DNA from: Methylomarinum sp. Ch1-1
GTDB lineage: Bacteria; Pseudomonadota; Gammaproteobacteria; Methylococcales; Methylomonadaceae
Direction: 5' to 3'
DNA length: 64,000 bases
Assembly (NCBI RefSeq): GCF_030717995.2
Contig: NZ_CP157743.1
Coordinates: 806,001-870,000 of the forward strand
Positions 25,526 through 28,868 of this stretch are shown piece after piece. Position 1 is the stretch's first letter, and each line of letters starts with the position of its first letter. The translations under genes and the position numbers were made by a program. The notes beneath the pieces are model-generated. The model saw nothing but the letters and a program-made list of their open reading frames with translations, ran no database searches and was not told the origin of the DNA.

Positions 25526-25932
25526 GGCAATTTTTTCCTTAAAGGTTATCTACAGAGTTTAGCCCGGATAATCGGACGAGGGAAAGCTCTGGCGTGGAAA
25601 TCGGTTATAACGACCGCGGATGTCATCTAGCCACGGCTTAACTCGTTCCCAAGTTTTAGAGGGGGGGGATTATACAAGGCAGTCTTGGATTGTTCTGGGA
25701 TTATCCGGTAGCGGCAACGATTGCCGGTGATTGTCGAGTATTTTTTTGTAAGCAAACAACGGTGATTTCTGTTTTTCCGTCTGATCACTGCAGAATTGTG
25801 TCAATTGACTGAGTCAGTATGGTAAATGCCATAAAATCAATGCTAAGAGTATACGGCTAAGCCGATTTTCCGGTATTTCTGTTTGGCCAAAAGATATACA
25901 TAACAAAATCCATGCCGATTTCGGCGGCATAT
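25526..25932. other. Intergenic region upstream of ppnN
   Basis: About 400 bp without a gene. It should hold the ppnN promoter. A G8 run lies at about 25661-25668. I see no clear hairpin or mobile element before the conserved promoter that starts at 25933. Confidence 0.4.
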
Positions 25933-25983
25933 TGTCGCGCGACACTATGCCACATTTCAATTTTCGCCATCCGACGCTAAACT
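25933..25983 (+). promoter_or_regulatory. Conserved promoter with palindromic operator (copy A)
   Basis: The perfect palindrome TGTCGCGCGACA (25933-25944) is followed by CTATGCCACAT, a weak -35 (TTTCAA, 25955-25960) and a -10 (TAAACT, 25978-25983). Two other copies, at 28319-28369 and 28780-28830, have the same palindrome, the same following block and exactly 33 bp from palindrome to -10. This suggests one activator or repressor controlling all three. Confidence 0.7.
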
Positions 25984-25989
25984 TTTTTG

Positions 25990-26073
25990 CAACTCTTGTA
26001 TGCGACCCTTCCAAGCGGGAACTAGAGTTGAAAACCCTTCCTCTGATGCGGCTTTGCGGCCGCATTCTTTTTT
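25990..26073 (+). ncRNA. Candidate small RNA / leader RNA A
   Basis: The predicted transcript starts near CAACTC, seven bases after the -10. A 5' stem pairs CAACTCT (25990-25996) with AGAGTTG (26024-26030) and encloses ACCCTTCC in the loop. An unpaired linker with CCTTCCT follows at 26036-26042. The intrinsic terminator is ATGCGGC/GCCGCAT (26046-26065) plus a T-rich tail to 26073. RNAs B and C share this plan. The C/U-rich loop and linker resemble anti-Shine-Dalgarno seeds. It ends 30 bp before the ATG of the 189-aa gene, so it could also act as a terminating leader. Confidence 0.65.
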
Positions 26074-26103
26074 GTTATCTCGCGATATCCAAAGGAGCAA
26101 CAG

Positions 26104-26673
26104 ATGGCATATGAATATCTGGATCTCGAAAACAAACTGTATATTCCGACACAGAAACTGCTCGATCAGATTCAATTGGATTTAGCCGGGCTTTTTACGA
26201 TGATTCGTCAAGGCGCGATCGATGCTCATAATAGCCTCGCGGTCCTGGGCAGGGAATGGTATGACGACCCGATCGCAACGTCGGAGCGTTGGTATAACCA
26301 GGCGGTCGCATACGGCGCCGATCTTTATGCCGTTTTTTTTGAAAAATGGCTGCCTCAGGCCGAGCAAAGCTATGATCAGATGCTGCTTGCCGCGTCAGAG
26401 TTAGCGACGCAGACGCTCGATAACGTCGACTATATCGTCGAAAATCCGGAACAGGTAAGCGCCGAAGCCATAGCATCGATGACGGAAAGCCTGACAGCGG
26501 CAGGTCATTTATCGGCGGAACTGGTGGAGGACTTACAAAACAAAAGCGAGGAAATCATTGCCTTGTTAATGGAACAGCCATTACAGACCTTGGAAACGGC
26601 CACTATGGAATTATTATCCAGTCTGCTCAATGCCTATTACGAACTGGCGACAACGATATTGGCAAGCTTGTGA
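26104..26673 (+). CDS. Helical protein of unknown function (phasin-like appearance)
   Basis: A 189-aa, almost entirely helical acidic protein with many Ala, Leu, Glu and Gln and no Cys, signal peptide or transmembrane segment. Amphipathic helices of this type recall phasins or coiled-coil scaffold proteins, but I do not recognise the family. AAAGGAG lies 6 bases before the ATG, a strong ribosome site. It lies just downstream of RNA A and its terminator, so expression would need readthrough or another promoter. Confidence 0.78.
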   Translation: MAYEYLDLENKLYIPTQKLLDQIQLDLAGLFTMIRQGAIDAHNSLAVLGREWYDDPIATSERWYNQAVAYGADLYAVFFEKWLPQAEQSYDQMLLAASELATQTLDNVDYIVENPEQVSAEAIASMTESLTAAGHLSAELVEDLQNKSEEIIALLMEQPLQTLETATMELLSSLLNAYYELATTILASL

Positions 26674-26734
26674 ACAGCCGTCGGAAGCTATTAAGCCGTC
26701 GTTGACGGCAAAATAGACTCACTAGATTTAGACC

Positions 26735-26941
26735 TTATTCTTCCGTTTCGCAGCAACTTGCTTCATTAATCTGTTGCCGGTATTTATGCAGATAAATGCC
26801 GGCAACCACGCCGACGCCAAATAGCAAAACAGGATGTCTGGCCGCGCCCCCTAGGATGCGAGCGCCCAGACCGCTACCGGTGGCGATTGCTCCGGCCTTG
26901 ACGGCGCCCTTGGCGCCATGATTCGCGTGTGAACTCATCAT
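26735..26941 (-). CDS. Small Gly/Ala-rich membrane protein (68 aa)
   Basis: Residues 1-35 are rich in Gly and Ala (GAVKAGAIATGSGLGARILG), and residues about 37-52 form a transmembrane segment (HPVLLFGVGVVAGIYL). The tail ends NEASCCETEE, with a Cys pair. Two consecutive ATG codons give 68 or 67 aa. It lies 16 bp after the 59-aa metal-binding-like gene on the same strand, so the two are probably an operon. Function unknown. Confidence 0.68.
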   Translation of the reverse strand: MMSSHANHGAKGAVKAGAIATGSGLGARILGGAARHPVLLFGVGVVAGIYLHKYRQQINEASCCETEE

Positions 26942-26957
26942 AATTCTCGATAATGGA

Positions 26958-27137
26958 TTAGTGTTTATCGGCTTTTTCTTCCGGCTTTAATTCCTCGGCA
27001 TTAATCAGCCTGTAAATATTTTTGCAGCCTTCGCAGCAAAAATGCAATACCTGATTGTCTTTGGTTAATTCGGTAAAGATATTCAGCTCAACAGGCAGAC
27101 TGCACAATGCACAGGCTTTGGGCGCTTGTTCTTTCAT
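26958..27137 (-). CDS. Small Cys-rich metal-binding protein (59 aa)
   Basis: ATG at 27137-27135, TAA at 26960-26958. The 59-aa product has CALC near the N terminus (C9, C12) and FCCEGCKNIY in the middle (C34, C35, C38). It ends in a Lys/Glu-rich tail. This resembles the Cys-rich metal-binding (TRASH-like) module at the N terminus of some heavy-metal P-type ATPases, here free-standing. It precedes the 68-aa membrane protein with the CC tail, which suggests a metal-binding pair. The ribosome site is weak. Confidence 0.68.
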   Translation of the reverse strand: MKEQAPKACALCSLPVELNIFTELTKDNQVLHFCCEGCKNIYRLINAEELKPEEKADKH

Positions 27138-27301
27138 TGTTATTCAGACTCATTACCGCATAGTCGCGGCTTAGTTGCAACCGTATCGTTAACCGTGACA
27201 GATGATCGGTTTATCACGATGCATGGCGCTTGCATTACCGGTGCGCATGTCAATAATCGTTAGGACATTCTAACCGCGGATAAGCAAAAAACACAAACTC
27301 C

Positions 27302-27564
27302 GCTGTGTTAGCAGCAATTCCCATATCATCAGTTTGAGTATTTTTGCAGGGTTTAGGGCATGGGATGTGTCTGTCGAGGAGCGCCGTTCACCCAGCACCT
27401 AAATTATCCAGGAATGTAAAATATAGTCCAGTAGACATGGAATTTAGGTGCTGGGTAAACCCATCCCTGGGGGCTTGACGGCAGCATCCTTGCTGCCGAC
27501 ATCCTCGCCAAACACACCCCATGCCCTTTTTGAACGCCAAAGTGGGAATTGCTGCTGTGTTAGC
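27302..27564. repeat. F1 mobile element, full-length copy with flanking direct repeats
   Basis: Inverted ends AGCAATTCCCA (27313-27323) and TGGGAATTGCT (27543-27553) bound a 241-bp element. GCTGTGTTAGC occurs directly outside both ends (27302-27312 and 27554-27564). If the ends are drawn at 13 bp, the direct repeat shrinks to TGTGTTA. Inside are nested inverted repeats: GTGTGTCTGTCGAGGA against TCCTCGCCAAACACAC, and ACCCAGCACCTAAATT against AATTTAGGTGCTGGGT. There is no coding capacity. Confidence 0.88.
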
Positions 27565-27584
27565 CGGACAACGCTGAAGTCATT

Positions 27585-28223
27585 TTAACGATGATAATGG
27601 TTGAAAACTGTGATGATTTCTTCGCAGGAAATCGTGTCGTGGTCATGAGCCAGGATAAACTCCGCCAGTTGCATAACCGCTTGCCAATAACTAGGCCGAT
27701 TGATAAAGCGGTAGGCTTGCATGAATAGTTCCTGCATTTTCTTTTTTTGCCGCGATGGCGAACCGATGAAATATTGTAAATAGGTGGTGGCTTTTTTGAC
27801 ATCGGAACAGCCGCCGTAGTGTTTCAAGGCGTTGCAATTGACCAAGTTTTGATTGAACACTTCTCCGTCACGTTCGGCGACATATTTCGCTTCGGCTAAA
27901 GGGCCGACCAGCAAATTCATCACATCCGCTTCATAGGCGCATTGATAACTGTGTTTATCGGCATCAGAGAGATCGGCTAGGTTATCGATGACGGTGACGG
28001 GCAAATTTTGTATTAGTTGTCCGTCAATCACCTTGGCGAACAATTGCGCGTTATTTTCAGCCGGCTTGCTGACCTGAATTTCAAAATAAACCGGCGGCAG
28101 TTTTTTTTGGCGGTTGCCAAAATAGATGGCGGCGGCATGTCCAGCTTCATGGAAGGCTGTTTGTGCATACAGTTCCAGGTTATCAATTTGGATGGCATCG
28201 GTGGTGTGATAATTTCTTTCCAT
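27585..28223 (-). CDS. Stand-alone FtsH peptidase (M41)-like zinc protein
   Basis: A 212-aa protein from ATG 28223 (GAGG upstream); a GTG at 28229 is less likely. The motif FHEAGHAAAIYFG near residue 26 is an HEXXH zinc site of the FtsH/M41 form. A later LVGPLAEAKYV resembles the region of the third ligand in FtsH. No AAA+ domain or membrane segment is present. It may be an active small metallopeptidase or a binding relic. Candidate RNA C and its terminator lie directly upstream, the U-tract ending about 12 bp before the ATG. Confidence 0.75.
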   Translation of the reverse strand: MERNYHTTDAIQIDNLELYAQTAFHEAGHAAAIYFGNRQKKLPPVYFEIQVSKPAENNAQLFAKVIDGQLIQNLPVTVIDNLADLSDADKHSYQCAYEADVMNLLVGPLAEAKYVAERDGEVFNQNLVNCNALKHYGGCSDVKKATTYLQYFIGSPSRQKKKMQELFMQAYRFINRPSYWQAVMQLAEFILAHDHDTISCEEIITVFNHYHR

Positions 28224-28234
28224 GGGCACCTCGC

Positions 28235-28313
28235 AAAAAAGCGGCCCGAAGGGCCGCAGTAGGAAGGATGGTAAAACTCAACTTCTCCGAGGAGGGAGCA
28301 GCGATAAGAGTTG
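28235..28313 (-). ncRNA. Candidate small RNA / leader RNA C
   Basis: Reading leftward, the RNA begins near CAACTC at 28313. Its 5' stem pairs CAACT with AGTTG and has an inner CTCC/GGAG hairpin with CCTCC in the loop. The linker CCTTCCT follows, and the strong terminator GCGGCCC-TTC-GGGCCGC (28257-28241) runs into T6. The plan and linker are shared with RNAs A and B. It abuts the ribosome site of the M41-like gene, so it could be a terminating 5' leader or an independent RNA. Confidence 0.65.
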
Positions 28314-28318
28314 GGTAA

Positions 28319-28369
28319 AGTCTAGCGACAAGACTCTGTCTTGAATATGTGACATAGTGTCGCGCGACA
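28319..28369 (-). promoter_or_regulatory. Conserved promoter with palindromic operator (copy C)
   Basis: TGTCGCGCGACA at 28358-28369, followed leftward by CTATGTCACAT, -35-like TATTCA (28342-28347) and -10 TAGACT (28319-28324). The palindrome-to-hexamer gap is 33 bp, as in copies A and B. RNA C would start six bases later. Confidence 0.68.
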
Positions 28370-28385
28370 ATATGCCGCCGATTGT

Positions 28386-28683
28386 GGCAAGAAGTTTGCA
28401 ATGTATGCTGGGTTTGCCTGGCTGAAATGCGCTAGATGGGTATCTTGAGGGCTGAAAAGAACGAAAATTGGGTGATATGCCCTATTTAACCGAGTCATAT
28501 CCCCTAGTTTTGTATTGCCGAGTCGATCAGCCCTTTTTTTCTCTGATGAGCGGCGGAAATTAGTTGAAAATATTTTTTCAGATGAGGGGCGGTGGTTGCC
28601 GGTTTATATGGGATGCTGAATCGTGTTGTCCAGGATTTCTCAGCGTTCGATCTGAGACATATGCGATTTTCCCGAGCAATAGG
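28386..28683. other. Gap between RNA B and the promoter of RNA C
   Basis: About 300 bp with no convincing gene. An 86-codon leftward frame overlaps RNA B and lacks a ribosome site. A second stem-loop-poor A/T-rich stretch lies at 28536-28580. I see no mobile-element ends. Confidence 0.4.
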
Positions 28684-28684
28684 C

Positions 28685-28774
28685 AAAAAAAATGCGGCCT
28701 GAGGCCGCATTAGTATAGAAGGATATATAAAAAAACTCTCTATCCCAGGAGGTTGGGAGCGCATTCAAGAGTTG
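28685..28774 (-). ncRNA. Candidate small RNA B (free-standing)
   Basis: Leftward RNA from CAACTC at 28774. The 5' stem AACTC/GAGTT holds an inner CTCCC/GGGAT hairpin with CCTCC in the loop. A linker with CCTTCT follows, then the terminator AATGCGGCC-TCA-GGCCGCATT (28712-28692) with T8. Unlike A and C, no gene follows directly, which favours an independent small RNA. It starts about 95 bp after the stop of the GGDEF-EAL gene. Confidence 0.68.
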
Positions 28775-28779
28775 TGCGT

Positions 28780-28830
28780 AGTTTATAGCGCAATGACCAT
28801 GTTGAAAATGTGGCATAGTGTCGCGCGACA
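28780..28830 (-). promoter_or_regulatory. Conserved promoter with palindromic operator (copy B)
   Basis: TGTCGCGCGACA at 28819-28830, then CTATGCCACAT, -35-like TTTTCA (28803-28808) and -10 TAAACT (28780-28785, within TATAAACT). The 33-bp palindrome-to-hexamer distance matches copies A and C. Confidence 0.7.
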
Positions 28831-28868
28831 AATTGTCGCTATCGCGATGACGATCAGTTGCGAGCAGG

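Follow-up and report, generated by a model that had tools for sequence, protein, structure and literature searches.

Multi-copy units resembling an uncatalogued small RNA family behind RegA-like operators in methanotrophs of the Methylomonadaceae

Do three look-alike promoter and RNA units within 3 kb of a methanotroph chromosome belong to a family of regulatory RNAs and, if so, what would control them and what would they act on? We addressed this question for a 64,000-nucleotide stretch of Methylomarinum sp. Ch1-1 (contig NZ_CP157743.1, positions 806,001 to 870,000; hereafter the window), in which an original prediction, made from the letters alone, had placed such units at 25933-26073 (+), 28235-28369 (-) and 28685-28830 (-), here called U1, U2 and U3. 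They appear to be members of a family of small regulatory RNAs that had not been catalogued before and that is common in one methanotroph family, the Methylomonadaceae; two of the three (U1 and U2) may in addition serve protein genes as leaders. As a whole, we lean towards a reading in which sibling RNAs directed at Shine–Dalgarno sites would be activated by a redox regulator of the RegA type.

Results

Each unit is a promoter–RNA–terminator cassette with an RNA of approximately 80–90 nucleotides (nt). All three were found where they had been predicted, with the same parts in the same order: an operator block, a −10-like hexamer, a stem starting CAACTC with its C/U-rich loop, the linker CCTTC and a G/C-rich terminator followed by a T-run (Table 1). 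The block TTGTCGCGCGACACTATG.CACAT is identical in all three copies, and TGTCGCGCGACA occurs at three sites in the 4.77-Mb genome, every one of them inside U1–U3 (a reversed control pattern had none). An independent terminator scan of 3.6 kb recovered the terminators of U1–U3 among eight terminators in total (versus 4.4 expected in shuffles), and the folds of U2 and U3 scored z = −3.19 and −3.67 against shuffled sequences.

The search that had been suggested, with a covariance model of the cassette built from the three copies (R1, E ≤ 0.01), found the cassette in 143/151 genomes of the window's family, frequently with several matches each. A second, RNA-only model (R2) was built from 82 R1 matches; because its training included all seven loci of the own genome, its matches there are not independent. 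Order-wide (E ≤ 0.01), R2 matched 172 of the 251 genomes (170/177 in the own family and 2/74 in other families, the latter two at E values of 0.003 and 0.007, about chance level), and among 274 genomes drawn from the class (E ≤ 0.001) it matched two, both of the own family, and none of the 272 others, with filters in both searches that lose weak matches. The seven loci of the own genome are U1, U2, U3, C2:2255364-2255527, C1:53233-53367, C2:663111-663252 and the weakest, C2:327997-328140 (E = 0.009).

For comparisons among units, 80 further regions yielded 154 rows, of which 18 were dropped by hand (reverse-strand or partial matches below 35 bits); the 136 kept, including a 27-bit copy beside regBA (L043), became 134 units after removal of two duplicates, and 82 representatives were used (pairwise identity ≤88%, with the aberrant tandem copy L073:1019 excluded). 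More than half of the unit lay within a long open reading frame in just 8 of 132 cases, versus 51.5% of flanking DNA inside such frames. Units also recur in tandem arrays of stand-alone copies, each with its own promoter and terminator (four at 190-bp spacing in L115 and five or more in L073), a pattern suggestive of a gene in its own right. At the gathering thresholds of Rfam 15 there were no matches in the window, in keeping with the expectation that no named family has this design, and 20 related loci gave one tRNA only; a relaxed search returned ncS025 (19.7 of 46 bits, U1), L20_leader (17.6 of 58.7, U3) and STnc50 (21.1 of 55, strand opposite U3), all below threshold. Units of the U1–U3 type are very probably transcribed small RNA genes, and the covariance models support the original view that they form a regulatory family.

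Compensatory changes, which had been proposed as a check in homologues, were present in both helices of the RNA. They were scored on the 82 representatives with a hand-written structure (a 7-pair 5′ stem and an 8-pair terminator), because RNAalifold alone recovered just the terminator. Paired cells reached 87.1% versus 80.1% in shuffles, and cells with two-sided changes numbered 85 versus 23.3; slid versions of the same structure gave at most 47.2% paired and 22 two-sided changes. Such changes affected 4/7 pairs of the 5′ stem and 7/8 pairs of the terminator, the excess coming mostly from the latter. Predicted folds placed a 5′ hairpin near the start in 68/82 sequences, z was below −2 in 68/82 (mean −3.25), and six or more consecutive T stood near the end of 74/82.

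Outside both stems lies the linker ATCCTTC, each column of which is kept in 67–77 of the 82 sequences, as expected for Shine–Dalgarno pairing. CCTTC or CCTCC was present in 71/82 sequences (in the linker in 67 cases, among the first 40 nt in 29), and 69 of the 106 occurrences were fully unpaired in the predicted folds. Pairing with Shine–Dalgarno sites had been suggested for loop and linker alike; the near-invariant linker fits this idea, and the loop motif proved less general. We consider it fairly likely that the RNAs would act in trans through such pairing.

The 12-bp palindrome that had drawn attention to the units is present, but it is just the place where two 15-bp inverted repeats (consensus GYGRCAnnnTGYCRC) meet in tandem; together these repeats form the operator (for U1, see Table 1). 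A proximal operator within one mismatch of the consensus was found in 78/82 representatives, 73 of which also fit the consensus within one mismatch in the adjoining upstream 15-mer. When the 78 units were stacked, T, A and the final T of the −10 hexamer each reached 96%, with TAnnnT standing 32–37 nt past the centre of the proximal operator, and no −35 hexamer was visible; in place of the weak −35 of the original prediction, the proximal operator lies over the expected −35 region. Consistent with a missing −35, a sigma-70 scan returned seven sites, none of them at a unit on that unit's strand. Because the proximal operator replaces the −35 box, we infer that the promoter is activator-dependent; fixed spacing with a site over the −35 region is the look of class II activation.

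Spacing was checked independently in 20 regions found by the RNA-only model in genomes outside its training and in 20 regBA regions chosen by RegA homology, which together gave 34 RNA matches (25 from untrained genomes of related genera and 9 from RegA-chosen loci). An operator with at most one mismatch stood at −49 from the model start in 34/34 of them, versus 9/534 control 80-mers, a figure that may include some neighbouring copies. Within the own genome, the same pattern occurs at nine places, seven of which are the RNA loci (backward control, three).

The operators resemble the RegR box and the Rhodobacter capsulatus RegA motif as quoted in PMC5506826. By this likeness, 77/78 proximal and 75/78 distal operators fit the RegR box within two mismatches, versus 52 of 57,278 background 15-mers, and 5/78 proximal and 38/78 distal operators fit the R. 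capsulatus motif exactly, versus 25 of 57,278. The genome encodes a RegB/RegA-like pair; its members score far better against the NCBI families ActS/PrrB/RegB and ActR/PrrA/RegA than against any other, though below the cut-offs of both. The best PDB sequence match of the RegA homologue is 3rqi (E = 1.4e-48), which we take to be a Burkholderia RegA. The RegB homologue carries GGASNPI, the last residue of which departs from the quinone motif GGXXNPF as given in PMC8191878.

A copy of operator and RNA lies upstream of regB in the own genome, divergent from regBA, and among 20 other regBA loci an operator stood within 440 nt upstream of regB in 10 and a divergent RNA in 9. This subtype (~CTAACTTTT...GAAAGTTGCGTTATAT..TTCCTAA) has a single operator between RNA and regB, and was seen in G000:C2:327997-328140 (L043) and in nine of L267–L286. 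Taken with the likeness of the operators, the RNAs are probably controlled by a RegA-type redox regulator. A literature search for RegA, RegB and Methylococcales together found no paper.

A promoter scan of the whole collection returned 84 stretches, with an R2 match (E ≤ 0.1) in 52 of the 80 listed; the remaining 28 loci include Nitrosomonas, Mariprofundus and Chromatiales. The distribution of the operator is therefore wider than that of the RNA, because these loci carry operator and promoter without an RNA match. Open reading frames were sought in 25 of the 28, and of 10 proteins scanned, 5 were TonB receptors.

Among these side observations, the double operator and promoter stand before TonB-dependent receptor genes at L126, L155, L165, L167 and L184, which come from Chromatiales and other gammaproteobacterial metagenome-assembled genomes, Mariprofundus erugo and Crenothrix sp. 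D3. The operator also precedes 84–110-amino-acid proteins that share an SV[AG]W[YF].A motif (L127, L131, L136, L142, L143, L148, L152, L162, L171, L177, L186 and L196, from Methylococcales methanotrophs or uncultured proteobacteria), three of which were tested against Pfam and had no match. At L185 (approximately 348-560, a gammaproteobacterial metagenome-assembled genome), an operator is followed by a different hairpin, a C/U-rich stretch and a terminator; this stretch has no match to the RNA model and, judged by eye, is possibly an analogous RNA outside the family.

The units had also been described as standing in unlike surroundings, but they are not randomly placed: the gene immediately downstream of U1, like that immediately downstream of U2, is preceded by the same RNA type in other genomes, U3 stands alone, and the order U1–U2–U3 recurs in another genome (G043). 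The gene downstream of U2 belongs to a family with an invariant HEAGH motif in 15 aligned members. In a first count, a HEAGH gene began 10–19 nt after at least 36/134 units and a U1-type gene 28–40 nt after at least 11/134. That count missed some partners, and a relaxed recount made afterwards gave 47 and 12 (59 in total), leaving 75 of 134 with neither, an upper bound as diverged partners can be missed. In folds of U2, L014, L035 and L048, the linker pairs with the Shine–Dalgarno site of the downstream gene across the terminator.

Neither downstream protein family has a confident match in Pfam or NCBIfam. The protein downstream of U1 is phasin-like by eye. For the HEAGH family, 2 of the 15 members touch Peptidase_M41 (best E = 0.0012), a profile of the family had no sequence match in the PDB (a search from which the U1-type protein was left out), and its members are perhaps a new zinc-protease-like family tied to the small RNAs. 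Between U1 and U2 lies a separate element, a 211-bp nested inverted repeat (window 27335-27545) that resembles a miniature inverted-repeat transposable element (MITE). It has at least 46 matches in the own genome, of which at least 40, itself included, are near full length at 95–100% identity (40 of 385 candidates scored).

Table 1. Features of U1–U3 and of the adjoining genes, in positions of the window
Feature	Position	Strand	Basis
U1 distal operator GCGGCATATTGTCGC	25924..25938	+	sequence
U1 proximal operator GCGACACTATGCCAC, overlapping the expected −35 region	25939..25953	+	operator search, geometry
U1 −10 hexamer TAAACT	25978..25983	+	sequence
U1 small RNA, putative start, end at the T-run	25988..26073	+	models R1/R2, fold
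U1 intrinsic terminator stem	26045..26066	+	terminator scan, covariation
Partner gene of U1-type RNAs, downstream of U1, for a 189-amino-acid protein	26104..26673	+	
U2 distal operator	28364..28378	-	operator search
U2 proximal operator GCGACACTATGTCAC	28349..28363	-	operator search
U2 −10 hexamer TAGACT	28319..28324	-	sequence, stack of units
U2 small RNA, putative start; terminator 28257-28241	28235..28314	-	fold, terminator scan, R1/R2
Gene for a 212-amino-acid HEAGH protein (metalloprotease-like motif) downstream of U2	27585..28223	-	start codon 11 nt past the U2 T-run
U3 distal operator GCGACAATTTGTCGC	28825..28839	-	operator search
U3 proximal operator GCGACACTATGCCAC	28810..28824	-	operator search
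U3 −10 hexamer TAAACT	28780..28785	-	sequence, stack of units
U3 stand-alone small RNA, putative start; loop CCTCC, linker ATCCTTC; terminator 28711-28691	28685..28775	-	fold, terminator scan, R1/R2

Discussion

In the mechanism that we favour, a redox response regulator of the RegA/PrrA/RegR type would bind the two tandem 15-bp operators and thereby activate the promoter; the proximal operator, its centre approximately 42 nt ahead of the RNA start, takes the position of a −35 box. The resulting transcripts of approximately 80–90 nt would end at the intrinsic terminator. In their predicted fold, a 5′ hairpin whose apical part is mostly C/U-rich is joined to the terminator hairpin by a linker, AUCCUUC, that belongs to neither stem, and covariation backs both stems. 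The linker, and in some copies also the loop, would pair with Shine–Dalgarno regions of other mRNAs and block their translation, probably with the participation of Hfq, which is encoded in the genome. At U1 and U2, read-through of the terminator would turn the transcript into a leader of the downstream gene, and the linker of U2 could then mask the Shine–Dalgarno site of the HEAGH gene. The copy divergent from regBA could provide feedback in the redox circuit. More tentatively, a single cassette may have spread by duplication into a redox circuit throughout the family, its stand-alone copies being trans-acting, its copies beside the two partner genes serving both as small RNAs and as masking leaders, and the regBA copy closing a feedback loop on the sensor.

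Several observations tell against the proposal that these are sibling anti-Shine–Dalgarno RNAs under a RegA-type regulator. The fold of U1 is just moderately better than shuffles (z = −1.87), RNAalifold did not recover the 5′ stem of the 82 representatives unaided, 3/7 pairs of that stem vary one-sidedly and the outermost one does not form in 61 sequences; moreover, the number of pairs with a two-sided change (11) was reached in 19/500 shuffles. Neither CCTTC nor CCTCC occurs in 11/82 representatives, and a complement of the U3 linker before an ATG was found at two sites only, neither of which precedes a long open reading frame. At the promoter, 4/82 representatives had no proximal operator within one mismatch, and among the other 78 the operator began at −49 from the cut start in 63 and at −47, −48 or −50 in 15. 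The agreement with the RegR box is a likeness rather than an independent discovery, because the operators had been chosen beforehand by their own consensus, and exact fits to that box are few (8/78 proximal and 6/78 distal). Published RegA-type motifs did not predict the RegA sites of Acidithiobacillus ferrooxidans, by the account in PMC5506826. The RegA homologue scores 196.6 bits (NCBI cut-off, 250) and the RegB homologue 208.6 (cut-off, 350), and 10 of the 20 other regBA loci lack the operator and 11 an RNA match. The RegA model matched 151/151 family genomes, with 0/151 above the cut-off (G004, G006, G064, G069, G101 and G115 just at E values of 1e-15 to 1e-20), and 12/14 control genomes; because nearly all members of the family have a RegA-like protein, its presence or absence gives no test of the regulator.

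Some of these points would suit an activator other than RegA, a different regulator with a similar inverted repeat, acting on RNAs that are themselves real. The case for RegA consists of motif similarity and of operators adjoining roughly half of the regBA loci, with both homologues below the NCBI cut-offs, and yet operator length and half-sites match the RegR and RegA boxes and the operator with its divergent RNA recurs beside regBA in loci that were picked by RegA alone, so that we judge another regulator unlikely, if worth keeping in mind. It is likewise improbable, in our estimate, that the cassette is mainly a cis-acting leader or attenuator of the next gene, made of a terminator and a linker that masks the Shine–Dalgarno site, with stand-alone copies decayed or incidental. 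The short distance to the two partner genes and the four folds with pairing across the terminator are what such a leader would give; the many units with neither partner are not, nor are several copies in a row, which a leader does not need, and the stand-alone tandem copies have their own operator and terminator and retain linker and stems.

Two further candidates were rejected. Multi-copy small RNAs behind an activator palindrome resemble RsmX/Y/Z, and the units might thus be sponge RNAs for CsrA/RsmA under GacA control, which would expose several GGA motifs and have a GacA box upstream. Both counts contradict this: the minimum-energy fold of 81/82 RNAs has no fully unpaired GGA, and a GacA box with fewer than three mismatches lies within 200 nt upstream in 0/82, which makes the sponge a very remote prospect. 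Equally remote is a mobile repeat without RNA function, of the repetitive extragenic palindromic or MITE type. In its favour, a genome has several similar copies and some of these form tandem arrays, but the seven copies of the own genome are few and mostly intergenic, in contrast to the 211-bp repeat with its many near-identical copies; partner genes and synteny are conserved in many genomes, the spacing from operator to RNA is fixed, and compensatory changes are present. Megablast of the 3-kb region against plasmid and phage collections was empty, a weak test at that sensitivity. A known mobile repeat with random placement, which had been named as a possible refutation, was thus not borne out, and RegA-linked small RNAs directed at Shine–Dalgarno sites remain the reading that we prefer.

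A literature search found no report of the U1–U3 family, subscription papers being outside its reach, and a search limited to exact wording found no paper on native regulatory small RNAs of methanotrophs; a methanotroph paper on small RNAs and Hfq (PMC7720504) deals with a synthetic one. Present in nearly all sampled genomes of one methanotroph family, often in several copies and with precise promoter geometry, the RNAs offer a ready test of how redox sensing by RegBA could reach translation. They also come with a sharply defined candidate RegA operator, of a kind that, according to PMC5506826, could not be found in Acidithiobacillus. Redox-responsive promoters and small RNA scaffolds for methane biotechnology may follow from the family.

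Comparison with known systems places the units among several regulatory designs. PcrZ of Rhodobacter sphaeroides is a small RNA in a network controlled by redox and oxygen, with a link to PrrA. It is named in PMC10253847. PcrZ is a single RNA for photosynthesis genes, and no sequence relation to U1–U3 is claimed. The CcsR or cuckoo RNAs of alphaproteobacteria have exposed CU-rich motifs and a CCUCCUCCC motif. Like them, as far as they are described, the units here are multi-copy RNAs adjoining a protein gene. CcsR1–4 are processed from one RpoHI/RpoHII-driven precursor together with a DUF1127 gene, by the description in PMC10253847, whereas every copy here has its own promoter and terminator. 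In Neisseria meningitidis, the tandem sibling RNAs NmsRA and NmsRB pair with Shine–Dalgarno regions through a single-stranded linker and a loop, both UC-rich, as outlined in PMC5362039, and the tandem siblings with C/U-rich linker and loop described here are similar in design. In that outline, the NmsR pair comprises two copies with three predicted stem-loops and is tied to RelA and the stringent response, whereas the units here come in many copies behind a RegA-type operator, some of them before genes. The operators, finally, are 15-bp inverted repeats like the RegR box of Bradyrhizobium and the RegA site of R. capsulatus, and most fit the RegR box within two mismatches (box as quoted in PMC5506826); in PMC4064962, RegR boxes are said to have differently spaced half-sites. 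Unlike those sites, two boxes abut here at a fixed position before a small RNA promoter.

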